Shown one piece after another: positions 2,976 to 30,675 of a stretch of 48,125 nucleotides of DNA. Each line of letters begins with the position of its first letter. Position 1 is the first letter of the stretch. Origin of the DNA: Sulfuriferula multivorans (GTDB taxonomy: Bacteria > Pseudomonadota > Gammaproteobacteria > Burkholderiales > Sulfuriferulaceae). The stretch lies in contig NZ_BGOW01000008.1 in assembly GCF_003851125.1 (NCBI RefSeq), positions 1-48,125 of the forward strand. Direction: 5' to 3'. Made by a program: the position numbers and the translations under genes. The notes beneath the pieces are model-generated. The model was not told the origin of the DNA. It did no database searches and saw nothing but the letters and a program-made list of their open reading frames with translations.

Positions 2976-4271
2976 TCATTGCTTCACTACACGCAAACCC
3001 GCTTGCACTGGTACAAACTCAATTCCCGCCTGCTCCAATATCCAGACTTCTATTTTGTCGTGCCACATCCGCAACAGATCCAGCGGGCGGCGGATGTAAT
3101 GCTTCTCGGCGAGGGCGCTAGGCTTATGCCCCATGATTTGCGCTGCGATTCCTGTAGGCGTTTCTACCCACTCGCACAGTGTGCCGAATGACCGGCGCAA
3201 GCCATGCAGCGATATGTGGGGAAGGCCAGCAACTTGTAATGCTCTTTGATGCGCTGCTCTCGGCTCGGCAATGTAGCCAGTGGCGGCGGTCGGGCTGCTA
3301 AATACCCACTTATTCCGGCGCGGCAGGCTGGACAACAAGTGCGCCATGTAGGGCGTCAAGGGGATAATGCGCAGCCCTTCAACCTTGTCGCGAATGGTCA
3401 TGCTGCGCCATTGAAAATCCACGTCTGTCCACTTCAACCGGGCCAGCTCTTCACGGCGGGCACCCGTCAGCAGCAGTCCCTGCAGGTATGCGGATTGCAC
3501 CGGGTTTACTTGCTGGCGGACAGCGGCGAACCAAAGCGGCAATTGCTCGCGCTGCAAACAATCATCCTTGACGGTTTTGGTAGGCATGGCATCGCGCACT
3601 TTACTGCTTTGCACAGCACCGGCCGGAACCAGTCCGGCAAGGTCTTTCTCGGCCTCCAGCCAATTCAAACAGCCGCGCAGCAGCCGGAACGACAAAGCCG
3701 CGTAGGTTGGGCGCGTTTGGGCTTCCTTGTCGAGCCAGGCGGCGATTGTCTCGCCTGAGAGGTCGGACAGCTTCACATCGAGCAACGAAGCAAGCGGGCC
3801 TGGCTCGGTCAGTCCATTGCCGCGCTTTTTCACCTCGCCACCACGCTGCGCAACTTTTAAATGATCTTTAGTATGGCGTGCGCTCCATTTGGGGCGGCGG
3901 GCTTTGATATAGTCCGGCCAAACATCGGACAGGGTAACTTGTTGGCGCTTGGCTTCGGCAAGCTTGGCAGCGGCAGCTGCGGCGCGCTCCACTTTCTGTT
4001 GGCGTGGATCTATGCCTTGATCGGTCAAACTCTTGAGCCGGGTTGCCTCGGCCTGTGCCTTGCCTACAGGCCAAGTGCGCACATCGCCTATGGTCAGTCG
4101 GAGGGTTTTGTTGTTCAAAGAGGTTTCGAAGATGAATGACTTGGCACCACCAACGGTAACGCGCAATCCTAAGCCGGGCGTTTTGCCGTCCCAATAAATG
4201 CTTTGCATCTTGCCTGGTGCGCACTGCAACTTCGCTATCAGACCGGCTGTGAAGTTTTCCCGCTTCGCCAT
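2976..4271 (-). CDS. Tyrosine recombinase (P4-type integrase)
   Basis: Site-specific integrase of 431 residues, normal length for prophage/island integrases of the P4 type. Residues 1-100 form the DUF4102 arm-binding domain (WDGKTPGLGLRVTVGGAKSF), about 115-215 the core-binding domain, and 245-400 the catalytic domain. The full catalytic set is visible: R272 (GARREEL), H356 and R359 (HGLRR), H382 (MGHKPS) and nucleophile Y392 (EKHYIRRP). It should be active. The start lies 195 bases from a tRNA-Phe 3'-end repeat, the expected attachment site for this family. Confidence 0.95.
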   Translation of the reverse strand: MAKRENFTAGLIAKLQCAPGKMQSIYWDGKTPGLGLRVTVGGAKSFIFETSLNNKTLRLTIGDVRTWPVGKAQAEATRLKSLTDQGIDPRQQKVERAAAAAAKLAEAKRQQVTLSDVWPDYIKARRPKWSARHTKDHLKVAQRGGEVKKRGNGLTEPGPLASLLDVKLSDLSGETIAAWLDKEAQTRPTYAALSFRLLRGCLNWLEAEKDLAGLVPAGAVQSSKVRDAMPTKTVKDDCLQREQLPLWFAAVRQQVNPVQSAYLQGLLLTGARREELARLKWTDVDFQWRSMTIRDKVEGLRIIPLTPYMAHLLSSLPRRNKWVFSSPTAATGYIAEPRAAHQRALQVAGLPHISLHGLRRSFGTLCEWVETPTGIAAQIMGHKPSALAEKHYIRRPLDLLRMWHDKIEVWILEQAGIEFVPVQAGLRVVKQ

Positions 4272-5748: not shown

Positions 5749-6501
5749 CTAGGCAATGGTACGGAACAGGAAAACCGCACCCACTATGATGCAGAGTATG
5801 CCAACGAATTTTTTAAGGATGTGGGTATCCACGATGTGAGCAATATGGGCACCGAGAAATACGCCGCCTATTTCAAAGACAATAATGAGACCGGCTGCTC
5901 CAAAATCGATGGACCCGTAACGCAAGTTGCCCAACGTGCCGGATGCAGCCCCCACAATCTGAATGACCTGGCTTACGCCGATTGCCGTGAGCGGAGAAAA
6001 GCCGGACAAGACCATCAGCGGTACGGATAGCACCGGGCCGCCCACGCCCGTCAGCCCGGAACCGAATCCGGCCACAGCGCCAATGCCCACCAATAGCAGG
6101 CGCTGTCTGTGCGGATGGCTTCCCCATGCGGCCTGCATTTCTGCACGACCGGCGCGCAGCGTATAAATACCCGCGAGGATGATAATCACGGCCAGAATCA
6201 AAGCCAGTGAGGGTGCGTTCAGTCTTGAATTTGCCCACGCGCCCAAAAAACCCGCCACTGCCGCCCCAGCACAAACCGGTTGCGCCAATTTCCAATCGAT
6301 GCTTCCCTGCCGATGAAAAAAGAGCGTGCCAGCTATCCCCGCAAAAATAAACGTGAATAACGAAGTCGCCATGCTCTGGTGGATCGCCATGCCGGTAAGC
6401 ATGGTTAATACTGAAGGAAGCAGTATCCCGCCGACACCCACCGATCCGACCAGTATTCCCACGCCAACCACCGCGAGCAATAGTGCAATGCCCCCTAACA
6501 T
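5749..6501 (-). CDS. TauE/SafE-family anion exporter
   Basis: Membrane protein of 250 residues with about eight hydrophobic segments and the two glycine-rich half repeats of the TauE/SafE family (GVGILVGSVGVGGILLPSVL near the N-terminus, GFGSGLTGVGGPVLSVPLMV near residue 150). Characterised relatives move sulfite, sulfoacetate or other small organic anions. It is the last gene of the minus-strand cluster, 37 bases after the DUF971 gene. The neighbouring sulfonate-type importer and AprA-like enzyme make export of sulfite or a related sulfur anion the best guess. The substrate is inferred from context. Confidence 0.88.
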   Translation of the reverse strand: MLGGIALLLAVVGVGILVGSVGVGGILLPSVLTMLTGMAIHQSMATSLFTFIFAGIAGTLFFHRQGSIDWKLAQPVCAGAAVAGFLGAWANSRLNAPSLALILAVIIILAGIYTLRAGRAEMQAAWGSHPHRQRLLLVGIGAVAGFGSGLTGVGGPVLSVPLMVLSGFSPLTAIGVSQVIQIVGAASGTLGNLRYGSIDFGAAGLIIVFEIGGVFLGAHIAHIVDTHILKKFVGILCIIVGAVFLFRTIA

Positions 6502-6538
6502 GCGCGCCCCTCAAACCCGGATATTGCAATAGGGAACG

Positions 6539-6838
6539 TCACGCCTCGCACTCAAGCTGTCTCAAATAGCTCCATGGAAAAATCCCGCGATCATGTCCGT
6601 CATCAAAGCCGATCTGCATCGCATACGACCCCACCGGCACAATCGAAAGGATGCGGATATCTTCCGGGCAGGGAATGTCTTCGTGCCTGGCGGTTAGTTG
6701 CCGGCAGGTGGTACAGCGACAGGCGCGCCGCAATGCAGCGTCTTTAAACCGGCTCACCAGCCCGTCACTCCAGTTGATCTCCAGTTCGCGTGATGCGGCA
6801 AGCTGTCGTATCTCGATCGGTATTGGTTCATTTGACAC
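6539..6838 (-). CDS. DUF971-domain protein
   Basis: Single-domain protein of 99 residues matching DUF971, the small domain also found at the N-terminus of gamma-butyrobetaine hydroxylase: IEIRQLAASRELEINWSDG, then ALRRACRCTTCRQL with three closely spaced Cys, and the ending VGSYAMQIGFDDGHDRGIFPW. Stand-alone members often sit near iron-sulfur cluster genes. Only 2 bases separate it from the large flavoprotein upstream, so the two are surely cotranscribed. A role in maturing that iron-sulfur flavoprotein is plausible but unproven. Confidence 0.85.
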   Translation of the reverse strand: MSNEPIPIEIRQLAASRELEINWSDGLVSRFKDAALRRACRCTTCRQLTARHEDIPCPEDIRILSIVPVGSYAMQIGFDDGHDRGIFPWSYLRQLECEA

Positions 6839-6840
6839 GA

Positions 6841-9800
6841 TTATTCCCTTTGCTCCATGCGCTGTTGCGCCGCCTCTTCAGCAACAGGAACGCGCGCGCA
6901 TTCGTGCGCATTGCGATTTTTCTCGTCCAGAAGATAACTCAACCATAAATTGCTCACTTTCTCCTGCACGCTGTTTTGCCCCTGGCGTGCCTTGAGATTC
7001 ACGAAATCCACCGCGAACAAAGGTTGATGTTGATTGAAGCACGAAAACACGATGCCTGCCGGCAACTTCGTCTCCGGGTCATGGTGCTGGCACAGGCACT
7101 GGGCGCAAACTTCCTTCATCATGCATTGCATCGGGCTATTCACTGCCACCAGCGCTTTGAGCTGCGGTTTCAGTAAATGCCGCAAGGTGGTGCGCAAGGC
7201 GCCGGACATGCGTTCCATCGTAGCCGGGTTGTCGGACAGCAGCAGTGTGTCCGTGTGCCCCAGCCAGTTTGAATAGCTACCCTCGGTTTCCAGGCAGGCG
7301 CTGATGTAGTCGTCGACGCCATGCGTAAAGCAGCTGTCCTGCGAGCGTTTGCAATGGAGCGCCGGACCTTCGTCGAGTATCCATATCGCCTGGTCGGACA
7401 GGATTTCCATAACCGCCTGAACCGCTTGCGCCTGTTGCCCATTACGAAAATGCCCGATAAAGATGATCTGATTGCCCGCAGCATGCCACGCGGTGCTGCC
7501 ATCAATGGTGCTGGTCACGGCAGAATGCCCACCCATGACCGTGACCGTTTGATTCTCAGGCATGGGCAGGCCGGTACCGGTCGGTCCCATCAGTATCACC
7601 GGCTCTCCTGGCGTTAGCTGGGCTGCTATTCGGCTGGAGGCCCCGACTTCGTTCACCAGCAGCTTTATTTCTCCGCTCTGTTTATCCACGTCGATGCCGT
7701 CGATGGCCATGCCTTCCATTTGCAGCACGGTTCCCTGCAAATTTTCGGCCCGCGCATGGAAGTTTTGCAGCCGGTAAATCTGGCCCGGCTGCCAGTTCTG
7801 AGCAGCCTGGCGCGCCCGTACCGTAACGCTCATCACATTGCCGCCCAAACGCTCCACCTGGGTGACCACCGGGCAAAGCCAGCTGTCCAGATTTTCCACA
7901 AAACCTTGCCAGGCAGCTTGGGTGGCCGCATCAACCGGCGCCTGCAGGCGCTGCGCGAACAGCGTTGTGATCTCGCGTGCGCCCTGTTTTCCGGAAGCCA
8001 TGGCCTTCACGACGCTACCCTGAAACTGCGGGTGATTATCGCCATAGATGCTGATTCGGTGTTCACCCTTTTGATACGAAGTCAGGAAGCCGATATCCGC
8101 ACTCTTGCAGTTCCCTGTTGACGCCGCTCTGCGCAAGCTTGTCTCGCCTGTTAGCTGTTTATGCGTCGCGAAATATTTGCCGTCCATCTCGAACTCGCCT
8201 GGGTGCTCGCGGTTGTAAACCGTGTTGGGGCTGCTGCCTGCGGCAACGAATACCGAGCGCGCGGGAAGCTCGATCTGTTCTCCGCTGTCGACCCAAGCGC
8301 CCTGCGGATCCTCAACCAAGCGGCGAAACATCATGCCCTGAACATGGCCCGCTTCATCCAGCACCGCTTCTGCCGGATCCAGCCCTTGCGCATAAAAAAT
8401 CCCTTCTTGCAAAGCCTTTTCAATTTCTTCATGATTGTGCAGATAAGCAGGCGATTCGTTCATCCCGCGCCGGTAAACTACAGTTACGCCACCCCATGCC
8501 TGCAACAGCGGCGCAAAATTCGGCGTTTCGTTGGCTACGGTTGCACGTCGCCGTTCCGCGCGAATCAGCCTGCCATGAGCCAGATATTCTTCAAAAATTT
8601 CCTGCTCTACTTTATTTAAAGTGGCGCCCCAGCGGCTCGCCAAAGTTAGCTTTTCAAAGCGCTCCAGCATCTTCTCGACTTGTAGTACGTAGTAAGCCTG
8701 GACTTCGGTTGCCGTATCGATGGCGCTGAGTCCACCGCCTACAACAAGTGCCGGCAACCGCACCTGCAGATTGGCCAGGCTGTCTTTTTTCGAGGCGCCG
8801 GTGAGTTGCAGCGCCATCAGGAAATCACTGGCCTGACGAATGCCATGCGCCAGGTTGTTCTTGATCTGGATCACCGTAGGCTTGCCGGCACCGGTCGCCA
8901 GTGCAATATGCTCAAAGCCCAGTGTCCAGGCATCGTCTATGGTCATGGTGCCACCGAAACGCACGCCGCCGTAAACCCGGAAATGCCGATTGCGCGCCAG
9001 GGTCAGGTACACCAGCTTGAGGAAGTTCTTGTCCCAGCGCACCGTAATGCCGTACTCGGCCACACCACCGAATCCGCTCATCACGCGTTCATCCAGAGGT
9101 TCATTCAGGTCGCTTACGTGTTCGATGGGAGCGGGAACCTGCCCGCCAGCCCCGGTCCAGGTTTCATCGAGCGGCTCGATTTTCAAACCGTCGATCGCCA
9201 CCACGCCGAATCCGGATTGCAACAGATGATGCGACAAATTGAAGCCGGCCGGCCCCGCGCCGACGCAGAGAATTCGCGTGCCGTGGTGAGGTAGCGCATA
9301 GGGGCGGTCTCGATTGAGCGGGTTCCAGCGCGTCAGCAAATAATAGATTTCGAATCCCCATGGCCAGTTCAGGACGTCGGTCAGGATGCGCGTTTCGATC
9401 TGCGGAATATCGACCGGGTCCTGCTTCTGGTAGATGCAGCCTTTCATGCAGTCGTTGCAGATGCGGTTGCCGGTGGCAGGCACCAGGGGATTGTCGATCA
9501 TGATCACCGCCAGCGCAGCCAGCGTATAGGCGTCCAGCTTCAGCGTATGCGCTTCCGATATGCGCTCTTCGAGCGGGCAACCGGTGAGTTCCACACCCAG
9601 CGAATTAGTGCGGAATCCGCCATTTTCCTTGTCCGGAAATCCCCTGGAGCAAAAGTCGCCTTCATGATCATGGCAGTAAACGCAGTAATGCACATGGTCC
9701 ATCGTTTCGCGCAAATTGAAGCGCGGGTCTGTCAACCCGAAACCGTCACGGCGCCGCTGCCGTTCTGGCAGTCCGCCGACCCGCCCGGCCGCATCGTTCT

Positions 9801-10401
9801 CCACAGGCGCCGTCGGCACTAGTTTCATGTATTCGATTTTTTGCGGTAGTTTGAAGCTGACCCATCCGGCCACGTTCGCCTTGCCTTCCGGGGTGTTGTA
9901 GGCGGCATAAGCCCATTCTTCCAGCAGACTCAGGGTATCGTCGGCACCGGACTCCGCAGCCGATACCCACAGTCTGGCAACGGCCAGTTCCCGATCGGTT
10001 GTGTCCTGTGTATCCAGCTTCTGTTCCAGCAGGTCATCCAGCATTTCAAATGAGCGGGTCACGGCGCGCTTGCGGCGTACGCGCGGTTTGATGAATTTTT
10101 CCTTGAACACGTGAACGGGCTCATCAAGCAGCTGTTGTCGTCTCAAGCCATTGCGTGCTGCCTCAACGCCGAAAGCGTCCACCAGAAAATCTTCCAGACA
10201 CCGGCCTGCATCGATGAGCAATCCTGACTCTGCTACGGCACTGGTCTCAGCTCCGTTTCTATATGCCAGAAATTGCGCTGCCAACTGGCTGTCGCGTTGC
10301 GTCATGAAGCCCAAAAACAATTCATCCAGTACAGGCAGGCGCTCCGCTTCGTAGATGTCTGCGTACTTGAATCCGGGCAACTTCAATTCGAATGATTTCA
10401 T
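6841..10401 (-). CDS. Fused Nfn-like iron-sulfur flavoprotein (GltD-like + PyrK-like)
   Basis: Large cytoplasmic oxidoreductase of 1186 residues. Residues 1-230 are helical and unassigned. Cys clusters follow at 240-251 (CVYC, then C251) and 315-322 (CNDCMKGC), as in the iron-sulfur domain of GltD/NfnB-type enzymes. An FAD Rossmann motif GAGPAG is at 381-386 and a second nucleotide motif GGGLSA at 555-560. From about 840 a ferredoxin-reductase/PyrK-like domain appears, ending in C1093, C1099, C1102 and C1121, a 2Fe-2S pattern like PyrK/NfnA. GltD-like plus PyrK-like is the subunit plan of NADH-dependent ferredoxin:NADP oxidoreductase, here apparently in one chain. It could pass electrons between NAD(P)H and the cluster's ferredoxins. 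Its own intergenic region (10402-10542) suggests a separate promoter. Confidence 0.8.
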   Translation of the reverse strand: MKSFELKLPGFKYADIYEAERLPVLDELFLGFMTQRDSQLAAQFLAYRNGAETSAVAESGLLIDAGRCLEDFLVDAFGVEAARNGLRRQQLLDEPVHVFKEKFIKPRVRRKRAVTRSFEMLDDLLEQKLDTQDTTDRELAVARLWVSAAESGADDTLSLLEEWAYAAYNTPEGKANVAGWVSFKLPQKIEYMKLVPTAPVENDAAGRVGGLPERQRRRDGFGLTDPRFNLRETMDHVHYCVYCHDHEGDFCSRGFPDKENGGFRTNSLGVELTGCPLEERISEAHTLKLDAYTLAALAVIMIDNPLVPATGNRICNDCMKGCIYQKQDPVDIPQIETRILTDVLNWPWGFEIYYLLTRWNPLNRDRPYALPHHGTRILCVGAGPAGFNLSHHLLQSGFGVVAIDGLKIEPLDETWTGAGGQVPAPIEHVSDLNEPLDERVMSGFGGVAEYGITVRWDKNFLKLVYLTLARNRHFRVYGGVRFGGTMTIDDAWTLGFEHIALATGAGKPTVIQIKNNLAHGIRQASDFLMALQLTGASKKDSLANLQVRLPALVVGGGLSAIDTATEVQAYYVLQVEKMLERFEKLTLASRWGATLNKVEQEIFEEYLAHGRLIRAERRRATVANETPNFAPLLQAWGGVTVVYRRGMNESPAYLHNHEEIEKALQEGIFYAQGLDPAEAVLDEAGHVQGMMFRRLVEDPQGAWVDSGEQIELPARSVFVAAGSSPNTVYNREHPGEFEMDGKYFATHKQLTGETSLRRAASTGNCKSADIGFLTSYQKGEHRISIYGDNHPQFQGSVVKAMASGKQGAREITTLFAQRLQAPVDAATQAAWQGFVENLDSWLCPVVTQVERLGGNVMSVTVRARQAAQNWQPGQIYRLQNFHARAENLQGTVLQMEGMAIDGIDVDKQSGEIKLLVNEVGASSRIAAQLTPGEPVILMGPTGTGLPMPENQTVTVMGGHSAVTSTIDGSTAWHAAGNQIIFIGHFRNGQQAQAVQAVMEILSDQAIWILDEGPALHCKRSQDSCFTHGVDDYISACLETEGSYSNWLGHTDTLLLSDNPATMERMSGALRTTLRHLLKPQLKALVAVNSPMQCMMKEVCAQCLCQHHDPETKLPAGIVFSCFNQHQPLFAVDFVNLKARQGQNSVQEKVSNLWLSYLLDEKNRNAHECARVPVAEEAAQQRMEQRE

Positions 10402-10487
10402 CTCTGCTCTTTCTTAAAACAATTTCCATTCATTCAGGAATGCATCTGAATCGCCTGCATTTTTGTTAACCTCATAATCACGATAAG

Positions 10488-10503
10488 ACATGTAATTACA
10501 AGT
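10488..10503. promoter_or_regulatory. Palindrome upstream of the Nfn-like gene
   Basis: A perfect 10-base palindrome TGTAATTACA (10491-10500) extends imperfectly to 16 bases (AC-x-TGTAATTACA-x-GT). It lies 87 bases upstream of the 1186-residue flavoprotein start, in the only sizeable gap between the ABC genes and that gene. It could be a regulator site. It is not the same sequence as the palindrome in front of the gntR gene. Confidence 0.3.
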
Positions 10504-10542
10504 TGTTCTACAGCAAGCCAGACCCTATCGCCTGGCTCCCGG

Positions 10543-11397
10543 TTAAATCAGTTCAGCCACGCCTTGCGGACCTACTTCCATACCGAACCCGCCCATTCCT
10601 TCTTTGAGATCGCCGCCCATGGCCTTGAAGCTTTCTCCGCGGATAAGCTCATGCAGCTGCCGTTTCAGCTGGAGAAATTCATTTGACGTCGTCATTTCCG
10701 CGACACGCGGCCGCGGCAGCGGTACTTCGATTTCCGCCTTGATGCGACCGGGTCTCGCGGTCATCACGTAGACCTTGTCGGAGAGGAAAATGGATTCGTC
10801 GATGTCGTGCGTGATGAACAGCACGGAGAGCCGGAAGCGTTGCCACATGTTGGTCAGGATTTGCTGCATCACGACGCGCGTCTGTGCATCCAACGCACCG
10901 AAAGGCTCGTCCATCAGCAGTACCTGTGGGCTGGTTGCCAGCGCGCGGACGATGCCGACGCGCTGCTTCATCCCCCCCGACAACTGATCCGGATAATGAT
11001 TTTCGAACGCGAGCAATCCGGCCAGGCCGAGCAGGGTTCGGGCCGCTGTTTCCCGTTCACTTCTTTGGCGACCTTGCATTTTCAGACCGAACTCCACGTT
11101 CTTGCGTACCGTCATCCAGGGAAACAGCGAGTATTGCTGGAATACCATGCCACGCTCGGCGCCGGGCCCGCGCACATCCACTCCATCGACCAGTACGCTG
11201 CCTCCCGTACGTTTGACGAAACCCGCCACGACATTCAGCAGCGTTGATTTTCCGCAGCCGGATGGGCCGAGTATGGAGACAAATTCACCCGGTTTCACAT
11301 CAATGCTGACCTCATTGACGGCATCGACCACATTTGCACCCGAACCGAAGCGAACGTCCAGATTCCTGATTTCCACGTTGCCTTTATCTGCCATCAT
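10543..11397 (-). CDS. ABC transporter ATPase, SsuB/TauB/NrtD type
   Basis: ATP-binding subunit of 284 residues that powers import across the inner membrane. It shows Walker A GPSGCGKST, Q-loop FQQYSLFPW, signature LSGGMKQRVGIVRAL, Walker B VLLMDEPFGALD and the switch His in FITHDIDES, all typical of the nitrate/sulfonate/taurine subfamily. The C-terminus is about 25 residues longer than usual and glycine-rich. The ATG overlaps the stop of the permease gene by 4 bases. The substrate is not determined by this subunit. Confidence 0.93.
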   Translation of the reverse strand: MMADKGNVEIRNLDVRFGSGANVVDAVNEVSIDVKPGEFVSILGPSGCGKSTLLNVVAGFVKRTGGSVLVDGVDVRGPGAERGMVFQQYSLFPWMTVRKNVEFGLKMQGRQRSERETAARTLLGLAGLLAFENHYPDQLSGGMKQRVGIVRALATSPQVLLMDEPFGALDAQTRVVMQQILTNMWQRFRLSVLFITHDIDESIFLSDKVYVMTARPGRIKAEIEVPLPRPRVAEMTTSNEFLQLKRQLHELIRGESFKAMGGDLKEGMGGFGMEVGPQGVAELI

Positions 11398-12347
11398 GCC
11401 TTGCTCCCTCCGTTCTGGTTAGCCCAGGGCATGCTCAAACGCCCGATCCAGCGTATTGCCGTGCTGCAGGCCAGGCCCAGGAATCCAATGACGATCATGC
11501 CGATGACGATGTCGGAATACTGGATCAGGGAATAAGCTTCCCAAGTGAAATAACCGATCCCGTATTGACCGGAAATCATTTCTGCGGCGATTAATGAAAC
11601 CCAGGCCACACCCATGCCTACCGACAAGCCGTTGAAGATTTGCGGCAGCGCGGCCGGCAAGATGACCTGCCGCAACAATGCGGGCTCTTTCGCGCCAAGA
11701 CTGCGTGCGGCGCGAATCAGCACCGGATCGACACTCGTCACGCCGTGCACCGTGCTCAGCAGGATCGGAAAAAACGACCCGAGAAAAGTGATGAAGACGA
11801 TGCTGCCCTCGTTGGTCGGCCACAACATGATGGCGATGGGTACCCAGGCAATGGCAGGAATCGGCCGGAGTATTTCAAGAATCGGGGACATGAGTTGCCG
11901 GGCCAACCTATAGCGGCCGATGACGAGCCCCAAAGCAACGCCGAAAACCACAGCGATGCCAAACCCCAGCAGGATTCTACGCAAACTGATCAGCATGTTT
12001 TGGTAGAAGCTGTCGTTTTTGCTCAGGTCCACCATCTCCTTGAAGACATCCAGCGGTGCCGGGATATTGGTAAACCGGACATAGAAGTCGACCCGATATT
12101 TCACGGCCAGGTACCAGGCACCGATGAACAGTGCGATGGAGATCAGTGCAAGCACCGCGGAGCCGATATTGCGTCCGACACTGTCTGCCAGATTTCTCCA
12201 GACTGCATGGCCGGGAGAGGTCTGGCCAACCGTTTGTTCGGCGATCACTTTGCGCTGGTCATTAGCTGGCGTTGCCGCCCTCTCCGGCGCACTTGCCGCA
12301 TCGTTTGTCTCTTCGTGATAGTTAATCAGCTCTGCGGTTCGCATCAT
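11394..12347 (-). CDS. ABC transporter permease, SsuC/TauC type
   Basis: Inner-membrane permease of 317 residues with about six membrane segments and a hydrophilic N-terminal tail of some 60 residues. The coupling loop (SVDPVLIRAARSLGAKEPALLRQVILPAALPQI) is the classic EAA loop of the nitrate/sulfonate/taurine importers. It overlaps the binding-protein gene at its start and the ATPase gene at its end, so the three are translated together. The N-terminal tail is longer than in SsuC (usually about 260 residues in all). Confidence 0.92.
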   Translation of the reverse strand: MMRTAELINYHEETNDAASAPERAATPANDQRKVIAEQTVGQTSPGHAVWRNLADSVGRNIGSAVLALISIALFIGAWYLAVKYRVDFYVRFTNIPAPLDVFKEMVDLSKNDSFYQNMLISLRRILLGFGIAVVFGVALGLVIGRYRLARQLMSPILEILRPIPAIAWVPIAIMLWPTNEGSIVFITFLGSFFPILLSTVHGVTSVDPVLIRAARSLGAKEPALLRQVILPAALPQIFNGLSVGMGVAWVSLIAAEMISGQYGIGYFTWEAYSLIQYSDIVIGMIVIGFLGLACSTAIRWIGRLSMPWANQNGGSKA

Positions 12348-13810
12348 TACCTCCCCACGCTTGCGGCTGCAAGCGCTTCGGTATAATCCGCAACCTTGCC
12401 CCCATGCTTGGCTGCGTACGCAGCGGCATCATTTTTCAACAGGAACGGGACGATGGAAGGGTGTTTTGGCTGTTTGGCATCAAGGGCATAGAATGCCTTG
12501 TCAGCGAACAGCTTGATGCCGTACGTCTTGTCGAACAGGTAAACCACATCTATCTTCTTGCCTTCGGATGTGGCTTTCTTTACCGCAGCCAACGTACAGT
12601 CCGGCGAGCTATAGGCTGTAATGGCACCATTTTCTATCCACACCTCGCCGCCCGCCCTGGGGTCCTTGATCGTCTTCTTGCACAAGGGATCCATGCCGCC
12701 AATTTCATACCCGGCAAAACTCGCCTTCTGCTTGTCGTAATCCAGGCCTTTTTCCTTGAAAGCCTCGCGGATGTAGGACTCGTTAACCCAGGCATCGGCA
12801 TTGAATTGCTTTACCTTCCCCATGCGCTGCAGCACGCCGGTGTCGTATTTGATGGTCTCTATCCATTTCGGCTTGATGGTCGGGTCCAGCGTGTGGATAC
12901 CGCTTGGCCCCAGAAAAATATAGACGACCTCTTTTTCGATCTTGGTCCAGTCCTGAATTTTTTCTGCAGCCAATTTTGGGTTTTTGCGAACCCAGTCGTT
13001 CGCATCCAGCAGCGCTTTCAGATAGGCGACGACGACTTCCGGGTATTTGTCCGCAAAATCCTTGCGCACCACGATGCCGTGCATGGTCGGTACCTTGGTC
13101 TCGACGCCGTCGAAGATTTTGCGCGCAAAGCCGCGGTAGGGAAGCAGTTCAGCGAATGGCACGAAGTCCGCATGCGCATCGATCTTGCCCTCCTGCAAAT
13201 TGGTCGTACCGACTTCCGGGCTCTGATTCGACAGCTTCCAGAAATCATCCTTCCAGCCCCTGTCCTCCATCGCCTTCAACAGCATGCCATGGGCGGCGGA
13301 ACCGAACGGCACGGATATGCTCTTGCCCTTCAGGTCGGACAGTTGGTAGTAAGGCGAGTCCTTGCGCACGACGACGCCATTGCCTGCACCATCCTTGTTG
13401 TACGCAATAATCGCGACCAGTTCGCTCTTGGTGTCGTTACTGTTCTGGAAAGTGGCGCCATTCACCAGCAATGGATAGTCACCCATCATCCCGATCTGCA
13501 ACTTGTTCGCGATCATGCCGTTGGTGACTGGTGGACCGGATGTGAAGTTCTGCCAATCGATCTTGAAATGGATATCCTTGTACTTGCCGGTCTTCGGCAA
13601 GTATTTTTCCAGCAAGCCCAGCTTCTCCATGACTATTCCGGCAGTGACTGTATTGGTCGTGGTGTTCTGGATACCGATACCGAGAGTCACGTCTTCAGCA
13701 TGTGCCACCACCGTTAAAAATGCCGAGGACGCCAGTGCCGCAGCTGCGAGTAGCAGTTTAAATAATGATGCTTTTCTTCCGGTTGTATTACTTGTTAGCC
13801 GCGTAATCAC
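12347..13810 (-). CDS. Periplasmic binding protein fused to a NosL-like domain
   Basis: Exported protein of 487 residues starting at a GTG with a good AAGGGG ribosome-binding site. A long signal peptide ends near AHA at residues 36-38. Residues 40-365 are an SsuA/TauA/NrtA-type solute-binding domain (VTNGMIANKLQIGMMGDYP; SVPFGSAAHGML; DAHADFVPFAELLPYRG). Residues about 370-482 are extra: GGMDPLCKKT, DGK-like strand IENGAITAYSSPDC, VVYLFDKTYG and DAAAYAAKHGGKVADYTEAL. This order matches the NosL copper-binding family, with M373, C377 and C405 as possible metal ligands. The family's usual length is about 320-350, so the extension is real. Ligand unknown; sulfonate-like is a guess from the family. 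Confidence 0.85.
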   Translation of the reverse strand: MITRLTSNTTGRKASLFKLLLAAAALASSAFLTVVAHAEDVTLGIGIQNTTTNTVTAGIVMEKLGLLEKYLPKTGKYKDIHFKIDWQNFTSGPPVTNGMIANKLQIGMMGDYPLLVNGATFQNSNDTKSELVAIIAYNKDGAGNGVVVRKDSPYYQLSDLKGKSISVPFGSAAHGMLLKAMEDRGWKDDFWKLSNQSPEVGTTNLQEGKIDAHADFVPFAELLPYRGFARKIFDGVETKVPTMHGIVVRKDFADKYPEVVVAYLKALLDANDWVRKNPKLAAEKIQDWTKIEKEVVYIFLGPSGIHTLDPTIKPKWIETIKYDTGVLQRMGKVKQFNADAWVNESYIREAFKEKGLDYDKQKASFAGYEIGGMDPLCKKTIKDPRAGGEVWIENGAITAYSSPDCTLAAVKKATSEGKKIDVVYLFDKTYGIKLFADKAFYALDAKQPKHPSIVPFLLKNDAAAYAAKHGGKVADYTEALAAASVGR

Positions 13811-13960
13811 AATAAGTACCCCTTTTAAAATAAGTTACACCTGTATTTAAATAGGCAACTTTCATACCCAGCGAGTATTTTTTATAACAACCTGTTTTAT
13901 TGAATCTTTATCCTCTTGCCACTGTGTTCCATGCCCTTCAAGCGTGCGACCTGTTGTGGC

Positions 13961-13984
13961 GCGCACTGCATTCATGCGGTGCAC
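13961..13984. terminator. Hairpin after the seven-iron ferredoxin gene
   Basis: An imperfect hairpin (GCGCAC, mismatch, GCA, four-base loop, TGC, mismatch, GTGC) begins 4 bases beyond the minus-strand ferredoxin stop. There is no T-run, so it may be a weak terminator or an mRNA-stabilising stem. It lies between the enzyme half and the ABC-transporter half of the cluster. Positions 13811-13960 contain an AT-rich stretch suitable for a promoter of the ABC genes. Confidence 0.35.
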
Positions 13985-13987
13985 ATT

Positions 13988-14314
13988 TCAACCTGTTTGC
14001 AGATACTGAAATTTCTCCTGCACACCCATCCATTCATCCGCATCTGCAGGCGCATCCACACGGGCACTGATGACCGGCCACACTTGCGACAGCTCTTCAT
14101 TCAGGGCCACGTATTTTTCATACTCCGGCGGCAAATCTTCTTCAGCGAAAATTGCACCGGCAGGACATTCATCCACGCACAGCGAACAGTCGATGCACAC
14201 GGCTGCGTTGATCACCAGAAAATTGGGACCCTCATGGAAGCAATCCACCGGGCATACCTCAACACAATCGGTAAACTTGCAACGGATGCAGGGTTCGGCA
14301 ACGATATAGGTCAT
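13988..14314 (-). CDS. Seven-iron ferredoxin, FdxA type
   Basis: Ferredoxin of 108 residues. The Cys spacing is that of Azotobacter FdI/FdxA shifted by one residue: C9, C17 and C50 for a 3Fe-4S cluster, C21, C40, C43 and C46 for a 4Fe-4S cluster, with extra C12 and C25. The motif CPVDCFHEGPNFLVI is diagnostic, and the tail (PPEYEKYVALNEELSQVWPVI) is the usual FdxA C-terminal extension. It is a cytoplasmic one-electron carrier. Its place behind the AprA/B-like and HEAT genes suggests it serves that enzyme or links it to the Nfn-like flavoprotein. Confidence 0.93.
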   Translation of the reverse strand: MTYIVAEPCIRCKFTDCVEVCPVDCFHEGPNFLVINAAVCIDCSLCVDECPAGAIFAEEDLPPEYEKYVALNEELSQVWPVISARVDAPADADEWMGVQEKFQYLQTG

Positions 14315-14339
14315 AGTTTTTTCCTTTCAGCCTGCTTGA

Positions 14340-15302
14340 TCAGCGCGCTATCTGCGTCATGGCCAGCTTGGCCAGTTTGCGCACATCCGGATCGGGGTCT
14401 TCGAGCGCTTTTTCCAGTGCGGGCAATGCTGCGGGATCACCCACTTCACCCAGGGCGACCGCGGCTTCCTTGCGTAAATTGCTCACCGGGTGCACCAGTG
14501 CCTCGCACAGCGCGGGCAAAGCCGCACGACTCCTGAGCCTGCCGAGACTGCGTGCAGCCTTGATCCTGACTTGCCAGTAGCTGTCCTGCATTGCGGCAAT
14601 GAGTTGCGGCACCGCGTTTTCCGCGCGCAACTTGCCCAGTGTCATGACGGCTTCCTCGCGCACCTGCCAGGATTCATCATTCATGGCATCGGCCAAGGCA
14701 GGGAACACAACAGCCAATGCCGGAGCAAAGCCGAGTGCTCCCACCGCGATGCGCCTCACTTCTGAATCTGCATCCTGCGTGGCCACCTTGGACAATGATG
14801 CCAGCGCGCGCGGATCTTTGAGATAACCCAGCACGCCGACCGCCGCCTGTCGCACATCGGCATCGGCATCGGCAATGGCTGCCAGGGCGGGTTCCAAACT
14901 ACCTGCCACCTTGAGTTCTTTCAGCGCCCGGAAAATCGCTGCCTTGGCATATCCTGATGAGGCATCCAGCGCGTTCAGCAATACTCCGCCGAGACTTGCG
15001 TCTTTCAGTTCACCTAGCGATAGCGCTGCATTGGCGCCAACCTGCGGATCGCTATCCGTCAGCACGCCAATCAGCGCCGTCACCACTGCTTCGCTCTCGT
15101 AGCCTTCCAGAGCAGCCGCTGCCTCGGCCCGAACATTGGCATCGACGTCTTGTAGCGCTTCGATTAATAGCGGGACGATCAAGTCCTCGTCTTCGCTGTC
15201 GGCCAGATCCATCAGCGCAATGCGTCTGATTTCCGGATCGGCGTCGGTCATGCGCTGCATCAGCTGCGCTGATAGTCCATCTTGAATGCTGAGTGCGGTC
15301 AT
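14340..15302 (-). CDS. HEAT-repeat protein (PBS-lyase-like repeats)
   Basis: Protein of 320 residues made almost wholly of about ten HEAT repeats of roughly 31 residues, each with the pattern D-x-D-x-x-V-R-x-x-A-x-x-A-L-G (examples: DVDANVRAEAAAALEG, DSDPQVGANAALSLGE, DPDPDVRKLAKLAMTQ). No catalytic motif, signal peptide or membrane segment is seen. Such solenoids bind proteins, and related ones act as cofactor lyases or assembly factors. It lies between the two ferredoxin genes, 15 bases after the AprB-like gene, so a scaffold or maturation role for this redox enzyme is likely but inferred. Confidence 0.92.
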   Translation of the reverse strand: MTALSIQDGLSAQLMQRMTDADPEIRRIALMDLADSEDEDLIVPLLIEALQDVDANVRAEAAAALEGYESEAVVTALIGVLTDSDPQVGANAALSLGELKDASLGGVLLNALDASSGYAKAAIFRALKELKVAGSLEPALAAIADADADVRQAAVGVLGYLKDPRALASLSKVATQDADSEVRRIAVGALGFAPALAVVFPALADAMNDESWQVREEAVMTLGKLRAENAVPQLIAAMQDSYWQVRIKAARSLGRLRSRAALPALCEALVHPVSNLRKEAAVALGEVGDPAALPALEKALEDPDPDVRKLAKLAMTQIAR

Positions 15303-15317
15303 GATCTGGCTCCAGGC

Positions 15318-15551
15318 TTAACGCAACAAATAGGGAATATCGACATGCACGGCCCCGGTCGGACAATCTTTCTCGCAGGGCATGCAATACCAGCACTCGT
15401 CGAATTTCATGTAGGCCGTGCCTTTGGCAAGATCGATTGCCAGTATGTCGAGCGGGCATACGTCTACACATACGGTGCAGCCCTTGGCGGCAATACATTT
15501 TTCTTCATCTACCGTGACAGGCACGGTTACTCGGTTCAAGGCGTAAGTCAT
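15318..15551 (-). CDS. AprB-like 2x[4Fe-4S] ferredoxin
   Basis: Protein of 77 residues with two 4Fe-4S sites: C19, C25, C28, C32 and C53, C56, C59, C63. The long first spacing (C-x5-C-x2-C-x3-C) and the block DECWYCMPCEKDCPTGAVHV closely resemble the N-terminal half of AprB, the beta subunit of adenylylsulfate reductase. It lacks the long AprB tail that wraps around AprA. It starts 12 bases after the AprA-like flavoprotein gene. It is probably that protein's electron-transfer subunit. Confidence 0.88.
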   Translation of the reverse strand: MTYALNRVTVPVTVDEEKCIAAKGCTVCVDVCPLDILAIDLAKGTAYMKFDECWYCMPCEKDCPTGAVHVDIPYLLR

Positions 15552-15563
15552 GGCATCTCTCCT

Positions 15564-17294
15564 TTAGGCAGCCGCGGGTTCTTTGACGATGCGAAGTTTT
15601 TGATAAGCGGTTTTTTCTTCCTCGTCGAGGGCAACGATGTAGGGTTCGATCGGCCGCGTGAAACAACTCATGTTGCCGTTGGCATCTTTCTTTACCTGCA
15701 CATGCACGAACCAGTCGGCGTCGTTTTTCTCCGGATAATCCACTCGATAGTGGTACAGACCCCAGCGGCTTTCCTTGCGGTACAGCGATGCCTGTGCGGC
15801 CATCTCGGCGCAATCGCGGATGGCGTGTATCTCCATTGCGCGCATCAATTCGTGCGGATTCGTTGCACTCATCCGGGAAAGATCCTCTTCGATTTCTGCG
15901 AAGCGCTGCAGCCCGATTTCCATCTTGCGGGTGACTTTAGGTGGCTGCAGATAGTCATTGACCATGCGCCGTAATTTGTACTCGACCTGGCCGGGAGGAA
16001 GTCCGTCGACCACATCCAGCGGCCCCCATACGCGCTTGCGCTCTGCTTCAACCTGGGCGTTATCGACCGGCGGTAATGCGTGACTGGCACAATATTCCGC
16101 CGCACTTTCACCGGCCAGCTTGCCGTAAACGAACGCGCCTAGCATGTAGTTATGCGGCACGCAAGCCAGGTCACCGGCAGCGTACAAGCCCGGCACGGTG
16201 GTTTCAGCATGCTCGTTGACCCACACGCCTGAACCACTGTGGCCGCTACACAGACCGATCTCGGAGATATGCATTTCCACCATGCCGGTGCGATAGTCGA
16301 GACCGCGTCCTTCGTGAAAGCGTCCACGGCTCGGCCTTTCATTGGTATGCAGAATCTCTTCAATCGTGGAAATGGTTTCTTCGGCCAGATGATCCATCTT
16401 CAGGAACACCGGCCCGTTGCCGCCTTCGAGTTCCTTGTAGAACTCCATCATCATCTGGCCGCTCCAGTAATCGCACTCGATGAAACGGTCTCCGTTTGCG
16501 TTAGCGGTATAGCCACCGAATGGACCGGTGACATAAGCGCAGGAAGGGCCGTTGTAATCCTTGATCAAAGGATTGATCTGAAAGCACTCGATACCGGAAA
16601 GCTCGGCGCCAGCGTGATAAGCCAGGCTGTAGCCATCGCCCGCATTGGTGGGGTTTTCATAAGTACCGAACAGATAACCGGATGAGGGCATGCCCAGACG
16701 CCCGGCTGCGCCGGTTGCCAGAATGACGGTCTTCGAACGGATCACATAGAAATCGGCAGTACGGCTGTCGACTGCCATCGCGCCGGCAATCGCACCCCCC
16801 TCATCCAGCAGCAAGCGGGTTGCCATCAGCCGATTGGTGATTTCAACGCGCCGCTTTTTCAGTTGCCGATACAGCACTTTCTTCATGTTGTGTCCTTCCG
16901 GCATGGGCAAAACATAAGTACCGATGTGATGGACTTTCTTGACCGCATAATCGCCGGTCTCGTCCTTTTCAAATTTCACCCCCCAGCTATCCAGTTCCTG
17001 AATCATGTCAAAGCTGCTGGTGGCATATTTCATTACCGTCTTCTGGTTGACGATACCGTCATTAGCGACGGTGATTTCCTTCACATACTGCTCGGGCGTG
17101 GCATGACCGGGGATGACTGCGTTGTTGAGTCCGTCCATTCCCATGGAGATGGCGCCGCTACGTTTGACGTTGGCTTTTTCCATCACCAGCACGCGAAGCG
17201 CAGGGTTCTTTTCCTTGGCCTTGGCGGCGGCCATCGGCCCGGCTGTTCCACCGCCGATCACCAGTACATCCACTTCCATTTCGATGGTATTCAT
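15564..17294 (-). CDS. AprA-like FAD flavoprotein
   Basis: Soluble flavoprotein of 576 residues in the fumarate reductase/succinate dehydrogenase/AprA superfamily. The FAD motif GGGTAGP is at 14-20, RSGAISMGMDGLNN (45-58) matches the AprA-style segment, and the second FAD motif YAAGDLACVPH is near 371-381. SGHSGSGVWV (H352) aligns with the AprA active-site region GSHSGCCGAWV. There is no His for covalent FAD as in FrdA/SdhA, and no heme or membrane subunit nearby; its partner is the small AprB-like ferredoxin. It is shorter than AprA (about 620-660). It may act on a sulfur oxyanion or sulfonate, but the reaction is unknown. Confidence 0.85.
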   Translation of the reverse strand: MNTIEMEVDVLVIGGGTAGPMAAAKAKEKNPALRVLVMEKANVKRSGAISMGMDGLNNAVIPGHATPEQYVKEITVANDGIVNQKTVMKYATSSFDMIQELDSWGVKFEKDETGDYAVKKVHHIGTYVLPMPEGHNMKKVLYRQLKKRRVEITNRLMATRLLLDEGGAIAGAMAVDSRTADFYVIRSKTVILATGAAGRLGMPSSGYLFGTYENPTNAGDGYSLAYHAGAELSGIECFQINPLIKDYNGPSCAYVTGPFGGYTANANGDRFIECDYWSGQMMMEFYKELEGGNGPVFLKMDHLAEETISTIEEILHTNERPSRGRFHEGRGLDYRTGMVEMHISEIGLCSGHSGSGVWVNEHAETTVPGLYAAGDLACVPHNYMLGAFVYGKLAGESAAEYCASHALPPVDNAQVEAERKRVWGPLDVVDGLPPGQVEYKLRRMVNDYLQPPKVTRKMEIGLQRFAEIEEDLSRMSATNPHELMRAMEIHAIRDCAEMAAQASLYRKESRWGLYHYRVDYPEKNDADWFVHVQVKKDANGNMSCFTRPIEPYIVALDEEEKTAYQKLRIVKEPAAA

Positions 17295-17327
17295 TGAATG
17301 CTTCTCCTTGTTCTAAATGAATCGACG

Positions 17328-18080
17328 TTAAATGCGGCCGCGTTCGACGCGAAGCCGGTATTGGAAGGCATCGCCGCGGTAGTAGAGATATTCGAAATCA
17401 AGCGGCTGGTTGTCAGTGGTAAATGTCAGACGCTCAATGCGCAAAACCGGTGATCCTTCCTGCAAATGGATCAGCCTGCCCAAGGATTCGTCCGCCAGCA
17501 TGGCCTCGATCTGCAGTTCTGCCTGGCCCAATGAATAACCGTAGTCGTTTTCCAGAATCAGAAAGATGTCGCGGTGCGCGAGGTCTTCCTTGATCAGCCG
17601 TTCGCCGATTGATTTCGGCAGATAGGTCACGTCCAGCGAAATGGGGGCGCGGTTCAGGTAACGCACACGGCGGATCTCGGACACCATTTCGTTCTCGCCC
17701 AGGCCCAGTTTCAGCGCTACTGTTTTGTCGGCAGGAACGATCTTGAAACTGATCACCTGCGAGAAGGTTTCATAACCCATACTGGCCATTGCTTCACCAA
17801 ACCCTTGCAGCTTTCCGAGATTCTGGAATGCCTTGGGTTGCGATACATAGGTGCCCTTGCCATGTATTTTGAAAATCAGCCCTTCTTTCTGCAGGTCACC
17901 CAAGGCCTGCCGCACGGTAATTCGGCTTACCTCAAAAGAGCGCGTCAATTCGCTTTCCGACGGCATTTGCTCGTGGGCCTTGTAGGTCCCATCCAGGATG
18001 CGGTTCCTGAGTATTTCCTTGATCTGCGTATACAGCGGTACAGGCGACAGGGACAGTACGGTTTCTTTTTTCGGTTCCAT
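17328..18080 (-). CDS. GntR-family regulator, HutC/UTRA subfamily
   Basis: Transcription factor of 250 residues. The N-terminal winged helix-turn-helix (residues 13-82) has the family signature YKAHEQMPSESELTRSFEVSRITVRQAL, followed by GLIFKIHGKGTYVSQP. Residues 95-245 form a UTRA ligand-binding domain (YETFSQVISFKIVPADKTVA; VRYLNRAPISLDVTYLP). It is the first gene of the minus-strand cluster, 33 bases before the AprA-like gene, and probably responds to the imported compound. The palindrome at 18108-18121, just upstream of its own start, is a likely site for autoregulation. Confidence 0.93.
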   Translation of the reverse strand: MEPKKETVLSLSPVPLYTQIKEILRNRILDGTYKAHEQMPSESELTRSFEVSRITVRQALGDLQKEGLIFKIHGKGTYVSQPKAFQNLGKLQGFGEAMASMGYETFSQVISFKIVPADKTVALKLGLGENEMVSEIRRVRYLNRAPISLDVTYLPKSIGERLIKEDLAHRDIFLILENDYGYSLGQAELQIEAMLADESLGRLIHLQEGSPVLRIERLTFTTDNQPLDFEYLYYRGDAFQYRLRVERGRI

Positions 18081-24572: not shown

Positions 24573-25337
24573 CTAGCCTAGGTAGCCCATGGCCCTGGAA
24601 ATTTCGTCCGCGATTCCTTTTACCCTTCCCGACCATTTGTAGTTGATCCGATCTGCGGGTGCAGAAATAGACAACCCGGCTACCAACTTTCCTGAAGAGT
24701 CGCAAATTCCGGCTCCGATACAGCAAACCCCTTTTTCAGCCTCTTCTTTATCAATAGCGAATCCGGCACGCCGGGCCTTTTCAACTTCCTCCCGAAGTCT
24801 GTCTAGCGTGGTAATCGTATCCTTGGTAAAAGCCGGCATGCCGCTACGCAGTGCATACTCCTCGCAGCTTTGCTGGCCATCCTGGGCAAGAAATATTTTG
24901 CCGACCGCAGTAATATGCAGTGGCGCGCGCGTCCCGACCACCTGCACGACGCGCATCATTGACTTGGCCGCAGTCACTCGTTCGACATAGACGATTTCGT
25001 CGCCTTGACGCAATGTCAGATTCACCGTCTCGTCCAGTTCGTCACGCAGTTTTTGCATGAAAGGCAACGCCACCTGACGCACATTGATACGTGCCTTGAC
25101 CAGATTTCCCAGCTCAAGCAACTTGATACCGAGTTGGTAGCTACCTGGTTCAACCCGCTCTACCAGGCCTTTTTCCACCATTACACCCAAGATACGATGC
25201 GCGCTTGAAGGATGCAGGCTGGTCTGTGCTGCCAATTGTTTAAGGCCCAGGGGTTCGACATGGTCAGCCAATACATTTAATAATTTCATCATGCGGTCAA
25301 TGACTTGAATCGATGATTTGGGTTCATCCTTACTCAA
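24573..25337 (-). CDS. IclR-family transcriptional regulator
   Basis: Regulator of 254 residues. I chose the TTG at 25337 because GGGAGGGGAAGG lies just before it and the resulting MSKDEPKSSIQVIDRMMKLL is the usual family start; the frame extends upstream to 25403. The winged helix-turn-helix is at about 12-75 (GLKQLAAQTSLHPSSAHRILGVM) and the effector domain follows, ending with GAGICDSSGKLVAGLSISAP. It is divergent from lutABC and probably controls it, perhaps with other hydroxy-acid genes downstream. The effector is unknown. Confidence 0.93.
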   Translation of the reverse strand: MSKDEPKSSIQVIDRMMKLLNVLADHVEPLGLKQLAAQTSLHPSSAHRILGVMVEKGLVERVEPGSYQLGIKLLELGNLVKARINVRQVALPFMQKLRDELDETVNLTLRQGDEIVYVERVTAAKSMMRVVQVVGTRAPLHITAVGKIFLAQDGQQSCEEYALRSGMPAFTKDTITTLDRLREEVEKARRAGFAIDKEEAEKGVCCIGAGICDSSGKLVAGLSISAPADRINYKWSGRVKGIADEISRAMGYLG

Positions 25338-25511
25338 TTGCCTTCCCCTCCCGATCTTGATTATTGTTGCAGTGCAGTTGCAGCATATGAAACATAGGAT
25401 CATTATGCAAAATATTTTCCCGGCAGCATAGCAGCACCAGCCTGCTTATGCCGTGATGGAGTGGCCTGACAGGTATTTGACTTGACTGCTATTGATCCAG
25501 GAGATGAAGTA
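25338..25511. promoter_or_regulatory. Divergent iclR-lutA control region
   Basis: This 174-base gap must hold both promoters. A short palindrome TATGAAACATA lies at 25386-25396 within the AT-rich part and is the best visible operator candidate. No terminator or riboswitch-like fold is apparent. Confidence 0.35.
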
Positions 25512-28360: not shown

Positions 28361-28513
28361 TCTTGAAATCGGGAAAATAATCAGCTAGAGTATCCCACAG
28401 TGCAGCAATGAATTTTATAATATGAAATTCCGTCGCCGCCTTTCAGCGGCATGGAACCTGCCGTCAATCCGCCACGCGGTTTGACATTACAACCACGACC
28501 CATGGAGCAGTAT

Positions 28514-29719: not shown

Positions 29720-29749
29720 TCTGTGCACAGGTTAAACCAGTAGCAAATC

Positions 29750-29786
29750 ATGAGCCGGAAACGGGCCCCGTTCCCGGCTCATTTTA
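29750..29786 (+). terminator. Attenuator hairpin between binding protein and permease
   Basis: ATGAGCCGG (29750-29758) pairs with CCGGCTCAT (29774-29782), with further pairing of AACGGG-like bases inside, followed by TTTT. A strong hairpin with a short T-run directly after a binding-protein gene usually allows partial readthrough, giving more binding protein than permease. Confidence 0.65.
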
Positions 29787-29801
29787 GATGGAAAGCTCCC
29801 T

Positions 29802-30674: not shown

Positions 30675-30675
30675 C

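Follow-up and report, generated by a model that had tools for sequence, protein, structure and literature searches.

A conserved gene set of Sulfuriferula multivorans combining an AprAB-related flavoenzyme with a probable sulfonate-type importer

The window analysed here is the entire contig NZ_BGOW01000008.1 of Sulfuriferula multivorans, 48,125 nucleotides of a 3.6-Mb genome, and it carries a set of eleven genes, all on the minus strand and running from position 18080 down to 5749, that surrounds a flavoprotein related to AprA of dissimilatory adenosine 5'-phosphosulfate (APS) reductase. An earlier note on this DNA had described this same-strand layout, with a seven-iron ferredoxin and a fused Nfn-like flavoprotein among the products, and the open reading frames (ORFs) and the Pfam and NCBIfam matches bear it out (Table 1); the Nfn-like chain has a GltD/NfnB-like part followed by a PyrK/NfnA-like part, with conserved cysteine sets at 240-322 and 1093-1121. 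The AprB-like ferredoxin is shorter than the 90-residue ORF cut-off and was read separately from the DNA. Spacers are tight from GntR to AprAL (33 bases), AprAL to AprBL (12), AprBL to HEAT (15), HEAT to FdxA (25), Nfn-like to DUF971 (2) and DUF971 to TauE (37), and are widest from FdxA to the binding protein (177) and from the ATPase to the Nfn-like gene (141). Because the spacers span 2-177 bases and the three importer genes overlap at two junctions, the eleven genes likely form one operon and are presumably transcribed together. The nearest relative of the host among the genomes fetched is a Sulfuriferula metagenome-assembled genome (MAG; 94% in the AprA-like protein).

Table 1. The eleven genes in reading order, with the matches that identify their products
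Gene product	Position	Strand	Matches
GntR/UTRA-type regulator, 250 aa, opens the set	17328..18080	-	Pfam UTRA 1.9e-37, GntR 7.5e-21
AprA-like flavoprotein (AprAL), 576 aa	15564..17294	-	NCBIfam NF006131/PRK08275, 1081.9 bits (cut-off 587)
AprB-like small ferredoxin (AprBL), 77 aa, two [4Fe-4S] motifs	15318..15551	-	PDB matches include AprB and PAPS-reductase beta
HEAT-repeat protein, 320 aa	14340..15302	-	Pfam HEAT_2 8.3e-75
FdxA-type ferredoxin, 108 aa	13988..14314	-	NF045490 (FdxA_Protbact) 143.7 bits (cut-off 135)
Periplasmic binding protein (SBP), TauA/SsuA fold with C-terminal NosL-like domain	12347..13810	-	SsuA_fam 1.6e-37, 129.3 bits (under cut-off 163.5)
ABC importer permease	11394..12347	-	Pfam BPD_transp_1 2e-23; top models SaoP, NtrB, TauC, SsuC, all below cut-off
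ABC importer ATPase	10543..11397	-	Pfam ABC_tran 3.6e-33; SaoA 272.5 bits (cut-off 360), taurine ATPase 250.4 (cut-off 357)
Fused Nfn-like flavoprotein, 1186 aa	6841..10401	-	PRK06567 590.1 bits (cut-off 1072); PyrK/NfnA-type part 847-1014
DUF971 / GBBH-like N-terminal domain protein, 99 aa, C40-x-C42-x2-C45	6539..6838	-	PF06155 7.1e-24
TauE/SafE-type exporter, closes the set	5749..6501	-	PF01925 6.4e-36

AprAL passes the cut-off of an NCBI family that bears the generic name fumarate reductase/succinate dehydrogenase subunit (PRK08275/PRK13800). It fails the aprA model TIGR02061 (192.5 bits against a cut-off of 641.75) and the model NF005331 for 3'-phosphoadenosine 5'-phosphosulfate (PAPS) reductases of the MtPAPSR type (296.7 bits against 557), a group outside which it also falls in the tree. 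Among the 60 listed of 88 plasmid records, near-full-length matches are either at least 58% or at most 28% identical. A tree against the characterised families, a check set beforehand, places AprAL in none of them. This tree holds 46 rows, including 29 AprAL rows selected by hand from 103 sequences (the window and 102 loci), is rooted at its midpoint and carries a long-branch warning for the outgroup rows. The AprAL rows form one group (support 91/94), separate from AprA (100/99) and sister to AprA plus PAPS reductase (join 95/90); the latter group, which includes one phage-collection record, is supported at 100/100, and the succinate dehydrogenase and fumarate reductase (Sdh/Frd) rows lie outside all of these. 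The predicted structure of AprAL is only moderate (pLDDT 70.3) and poor around the substrate side; in a fold search its best match is PAPS reductase 8a8o, which is also the best solved relative by sequence, and AprA 1jnr ranks third. Four genomes that also encode AprA (G433, G474, G483 and G548) contain AprAL-like proteins of ~339-353 bits, below the family cut-off, which may represent an additional sub-family intermediate between the two.

The active-site residues of A. fulgidus AprA, including Asn74, Arg265 and His398, have their roles assigned in the available part of PMC2211403. Asn74 and His398 are kept in AprAL as Asn57 and His352, and Arg265, retained in all seven AprA and both PAPS reductase sequences, is replaced by Leu243 in 103/103 AprAL. 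Further changes are Trp234 to Tyr212, Phe261 to Gln239 and Gly274 to Cys252, and the Trp144/Gln145 region reads YVLPMP, where the alignment is uncertain. Three invariant cysteines (237, 252 and 349) lie, by alignment, near the mapped pocket. Of 29 pocket positions checked, 28 are identical in all 103 sequences and Gln239 in 102, but these positions were chosen for being conserved in the 29 tree rows, and conservation is high along the whole protein as well (columns average 82% identity in a sample of 34 rows), so the figure speaks of constraint and not of the roles of single residues. His242, Thr254, Glu255, Arg286 and Arg399 of Sdh/Frd (E. coli SdhA numbering), which we take to have catalytic or binding roles, are absent in all 29 AprAL rows, with both arginines falling in gaps, and fumarate/succinate chemistry was rejected for AprAL on this ground. 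Since the APS and Sdh/Frd positions are replaced or absent, AprAL, as judged from alignment, carries neither residue set and holds another pocket instead. The earlier note had doubted ordinary APS reduction from the absence of sat, qmo and dsr genes; the loss of the arginine and the channel residues, together with a true AprA (911 bits, with an AprB-like ORF adjoining) on another contig of the same genome, provides better grounds for that conclusion.

Some of the proteins encoded beside AprAL would form an electron path. AprBL has the eight cysteines and a tryptophan (Trp54, in the place of Trp-B48) in at least 97% of the 103 sequences, the pattern of an AprB-type protein with two [4Fe-4S] clusters, and Trp-B48 is described as an electron-carrying residue in the available part of PMC2211403. 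It lacks the beta-sheet and tail of AprB, stopping soon after the second motif, and its first cysteine spacing differs; the AprB-like ORF elsewhere in the genome encodes ~155 residues against the 77 of AprBL. The HEAT-repeat protein is a probable complex partner of AprAL-AprBL. FdxA, which has eight cysteines in 27/27 sequences, is the probable electron donor, and the Nfn-like protein may be the NAD(P)H:ferredoxin entry point for electrons; the electron genes vary but keep the link to ferredoxin, as in Methylobacterium radiotolerans, where FdxA is accompanied by a ferredoxin-NADP reductase in place of the Nfn-like protein. As read from their domains, these genes point to a ferredoxin-linked, NAD(P)H-fed reduction, a direction that we infer.

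The binding protein of the importer has TauA as its closest solved structure both by sequence and by fold, and TauA and SsuA are its best relatives (model pLDDT 83.4). Sulfonate and amine contacts of TauA follow the available part of PMC6906117; the six residues used here fit the TauA sequence, unlike Ser109, Asp84 and Asn55 as numbered in that part. In a careful alignment of 94 of 95 SBPs, one with an inner stop having been dropped, the sulfonate-contact places are kept throughout (Gln30 as Q48 and Gly61 as G92, each 94/94), while Gly79, a main-chain contact, is matched by glycine in 28 and alanine in 66. Two amine contacts are altered in every row (Glu106 to N144 and Asp205 to H244), and S171 is invariant alongside Q48, G92, N144 and H244. 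The SBP thus has the sulfonate contacts (Gln30, Gly61) and not the taurine-specific set (Glu106, Thr132, Asp205), and the imported anion may be of the sulfonate type and is probably not an amine like taurine. A feature missing from the earlier note is the NosL-like C-terminal domain, which is a hallmark of these SBPs; it scores slightly under the Pfam NosL cut-off (1.2e-4) and matches PDB 7og7 at 1.9e-5 with a family profile. A copper role for this tail was considered, but its two cysteines occur in just 24 and 23 of the 86 SBPs of full length, so they do not form a general metal site.

The Pseudanabaena locus (L106:9676-11676) has, next to AprAL, a LysR-type regulator whose C-terminal sensor resembles the SBP of the set without its NosL-like tail. 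The sensor matches all four of the set's SBPs tried at 30-32% identity (161-201 bits), compared with 21.5-22.9% (34-65 bits) for three of four other sulfonate-type binding proteins and no match to the fourth. This resemblance suggests that the imported ligand itself may be the regulatory signal.

The earlier note had regarded these parts as not usually found together. On the contrary, the core recurs, and its neighbourhood with it, both on plasmids (15 annotated loci) and in a genome collection, where the best 80 relatives out of at least 586 were compared, a sample biased to close kin. With a match of at least 45 bits anywhere in the fetched locus counted as presence, so that other ABC or GntR genes may count and loci at contig ends may miss genes, the 80 loci contain AprB-like (80), HEAT (78) and GntR (77) proteins, the SBP, permease and ATPase (76 each), DUF971 (59), FdxA (24) and the Nfn-like protein (20). 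FdxA and the Nfn-like protein are therefore markers of a subset only. The DUF971 cysteine motif is kept in at least 85% of 66 sequences. Two gene orders dominate: that of the window, GntR-AprAL-AprBL-HEAT-FdxA-SBP-permease-ATPase-Nfn-like(-DUF971), and a second in Massilia, Duganella, Variovorax, Collimonas and Methylophilus, GntR-AprAL-AprBL-SBP-permease-ATPase-HEAT-DUF971.

The 15 plasmid loci, from which one further locus without annotation was excluded, come from Alpha-, Beta- and Gammaproteobacteria, Acidithiobacillus, two cyanobacteria (including Pseudanabaena) and Tsukamurella. All 15 contain AprAL, AprBL and HEAT, the last fused to AprAL in an 893-residue protein in Tsukamurella, and the importer trio is nearby in 13, the exceptions being Mesorhizobium pMLa and Nostoc; an insertion element splits the trio in Acidithiobacillus caldus. 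The regulator differs by locus (GntR, Crp/Fnr or LysR), and a Mrp/NBP35 protein comes after HEAT in the two cyanobacterial loci. The TauE exporter, which the earlier note had counted as part of the system, does not hold as a general feature: a search of 102 loci with the window TauE gave no relative at E<=1e-4, and two plasmids carry annotated TauE genes next to the set.

AprAL is carried by 21 of 398 genomes of the host's phylum, 5 of 18 of its family and, above the cut-off, 11 of 200 of its order (14 of 200 at E<=1e-100), each count including the window genome, and the family is patchy in its distribution. A phage-type integrase lies at window positions 2976-4271, on the same strand and downstream of TauE; taken with this uneven spread among genomes, it suggests a location of the set within or next to an island. 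A scan of viral contigs for AprAL relatives confirmed none. A full AprAL is present in two phage-collection records labelled Acinetobacter phage (H101 and H102), and AprA in a Klebsiella plasmid record of 21.8 kb (H108); all three records probably contain host or foreign DNA.

Among 24 AprAL carriers tested, 20 have CysH above its cut-off (154 bits); the best CysH-like scores in the four exceptions are 43 bits in the window genome, 61 in a close relative and 123-125 in two others. AprA occurs in 4 of the 11 AprAL carriers of the order and in 46 of its 200 genomes. Given CysH in 20/24 carriers and the host's own AprA elsewhere, the gene set does not replace sulfate reduction in most of the hosts examined. 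Neighbours within 12 kb were sorted by product name, on our own reading, as clear, doubtful or no sulfur genes. Clear ones lie near 6 of the 15 annotated plasmid loci and include sulfonate binding proteins, flavin monooxygenases, TauE, YeiH, metX/metY and YeeE/YedE, a clue to a sulfur role that is suggestive only.

The best explanation of the set as a whole is sulfur acquisition, for which we propose that sulfite is released reductively, with ferredoxin supplying the electrons, from a sulfonate-type anion taken up by the cell, a reading we hold with even confidence for and against, its substrate class, direction and sulfite product all being inferred. An importer of the SsuABC/TauABC type would bring in the anion, and a cytoplasmic AprAL-AprBL pair, probably held by the HEAT protein, would accept electrons from ferredoxin; in the window operon, FdxA would receive them from NAD(P)H by way of the Nfn-like flavoprotein. 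Electrons would pass through the two [4Fe-4S] clusters and then the tryptophan to FAD, and the reduced FAD would attack the substrate sulfur, as in APS and PAPS reductases. Sulfite would then be released for assimilation or, in the window operon, exported by TauE. Linkage of the core genes across phyla and the position of AprAL as sister to two reductive sulfur enzymes favor this proposal, and the earlier note's broader picture, an AprAB-related electron-transfer enzyme beside a sulfonate-type importer and probably fed by ferredoxin and NAD(P)H, is supported.

Several observations weigh against sulfite release. No sulfur genes lie near 7 of the 15 annotated plasmid loci, and only doubtful ones near 2, while sulfur genes are also found in one of five control stretches, drawn from five of the six plasmids with clear neighbours. 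Flanks taken from 59 of the 80 genome-collection loci, with ORFs called mechanically, antisense ORFs included and long ORFs omitted (2/110 downstream and 12/144 upstream), have no sulfur family with three members among their 25 commonest families (TauD 2/108 ORFs, rhodanese 2/132 ORFs), and SsuD has no clear association with AprAL (2 of 11 carriers against 19 of 200 genomes). FdxA has no match in 56 of the 80 loci and the Nfn-like protein none in 60. In the SBP, a quick alignment mode places TauA Gln30 on G46, the third amine contact, Thr132, remains threonine in 65 of 94 (alanine in 29, window included), and nitrate, bicarbonate, hydroxymethylpyrimidine (HMP) precursors or pyrroloquinoline quinone (PQQ) are the ligands of other binding proteins with this fold. 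Finally, we know of no precedent for an AprA-type attack on a C-S bond.

Sulfonate is usually converted to sulfite in aerobic bacteria by oxygenases (SsuD, TauD) or a few lyases. A narrower form of the proposal is a reductive desulfonation, independent of oxygen and driven by ferredoxin, in which an AprA-type flavoenzyme with a remodelled active site would split the bond that holds the SO3 group in an organosulfonate taken up by the cell; this is possible, though doubtful. If true, AprAL would to our knowledge be the first enzyme of its superfamily with an organosulfonate as substrate.

The main rival to sulfite release is a non-sulfur substrate: a small anion or heterocycle would be imported and AprAL would reduce, for example, a C=C or C=N bond, like other members of the fumarate-reductase superfamily. 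AprAL shares Q239, P242, H302 and R270 with the three Sdh/Frd rows, residues that AprA lacks, and the ligands of the binding-protein fold, including nitrate, HMP precursors and PQQ, fit such a role. So do thiamine genes upstream of the set in Rhizobium acidisoli and a related amidase (50-70% identity) near it in a Methylococcaceae MAG (L046:8552-9994), Nostoc (L107:20026-21426) and Methylocystis (L110:15746-17116), with homologues at 29-30% identity in two more loci. The missing Sdh/Frd residues argue the other way, though other arginines such as R320 or R323 could substitute for the gapped ones, as do the TauA/SsuA affinity and kept sulfonate contacts of the SBP and the sulfur genes near part of the loci, and we regard a non-sulfur substrate as unlikely.

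An oxidative enzyme, which would oxidise an imported reduced or intermediate sulfur compound and hand the electrons to ferredoxin, from which the Nfn-like protein would pass them on to NAD(P)+, would suit the Sulfuriferula-like host. AprAB is thought to run in reverse in sulfur oxidisers, according to the available part of PMC2211403, and 5 of the 20 Nfn-like loci come from named sulfur-oxidiser lineages (Sulfuriferula, Halothiobacillus, Thiobacillus and two Hydrogenophilales), the other 15 being MAGs with broad or other labels. This direction is nevertheless improbable: the loci without the Nfn-like protein include Massilia, Duganella, Variovorax, Herbaspirillum and Methylophilus, the host has its true AprA elsewhere while 7 of the 11 carriers in the order have none, and a ferredoxin link would better suit a low-potential reductive step.

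It is very improbable that AprAL is a variant reductase that assimilates sulfate by way of APS or PAPS. In favour of this reading, PAPS reductase and AprA are the nearest characterised relatives, a PAPS-reductase-type pair lies between cysC and cysD in Ilyobacter, and CysH-like matches do not exceed 61 bits in the window genome and a close relative. Against it, the importer belongs to the set, no cysC, cysD or cysN is annotated beside it in the 15 plasmid loci (whose gene tables are incomplete), and ordinary APS/PAPS reduction was rejected on the Arg265 and channel replacements, the tree and CysH in most carriers. The Ilyobacter pair (plasmid locus L123:5399-8878), found in a fusobacterium, may represent a methanogen-like route of assimilation in a bacterium.

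If reductive sulfite release is correct, a widespread reductive route would alter how sulfur supply is read from the genomes of soil, rhizosphere and sulfur-oxidising bacteria, a protein now named as a fumarate reductase/succinate dehydrogenase subunit would gain a real function, and the Apr/Sdh/Frd superfamily would gain a further active-site type. The set is spread through soil, plant and sulfur bacteria and also occurs on cyanobacterial and actinobacterial plasmids. Reductive desulfonation, if shown, would make the system categorically new; otherwise, it would be a variant of Apr-type enzymes. Elsewhere in the window, at 24573-27652 and 28451-32619, an IclR regulator lies beside CCG/LUD-domain genes of the lactate-utilisation type, followed by genes of a branched-chain-type ABC importer.

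The set shares features with several known systems. Like Nfn, the Nfn-like protein joins GltD-like and PyrK-like parts with conserved cysteine sets, but it is a single fused chain that scores far under the named cut-offs and is recognised here from domains and cysteines. The importer resembles TauABC and SsuABC in its binding-protein fold, sulfonate contacts and type of permease and ATPase, and differs in two changed amine contacts and the added NosL-like domain; no TauD, SsuD or SsuE is among the eleven genes. With the Sdh/Frd flavoprotein, AprAL shares the superfamily fold and the equivalent of His354 but not His45, which we take to be the residue that binds FAD covalently. AprBA has the same fold, the two [4Fe-4S] motifs, the tryptophan at the place of Trp-B48 and the catalytic histidine, whereas Arg265, Trp144, Gln145, Trp234 and Phe261 are replaced in AprAL. 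MtPAPSR of Methanothermococcus (PDB 8a8o) likewise pairs an alpha flavoprotein with a small two-cluster ferredoxin and has equivalents of His352 and Asn57; AprAL is 30.0% identical to it over 536 columns, has lost the active-site arginine and forms its own clade, and the set, unlike MtPAPSR, includes an importer and a HEAT partner. The earlier note's term "undescribed" stands in part: a search of the open literature by title and start of abstract, with subscription papers outside its scope, found, among the records listed, no experimental study of the AprAL family and a sole mention of such a module in PMC12375680, yet an NCBI family already exists under its generic name and that mention is itself a prediction. 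A NifA-dependent alkane-sulfonate operon of Paraburkholderia phymatum, as described in the available part of PMC8305402, could not be tied to this set. In the available part of PMC12375680 (2025), a plasmid module of 'Fervidacidithiobacillus caldus' is predicted to serve organosulfonate uptake, and it is of the same kind as the set described here, such a locus lying on pTcM1.

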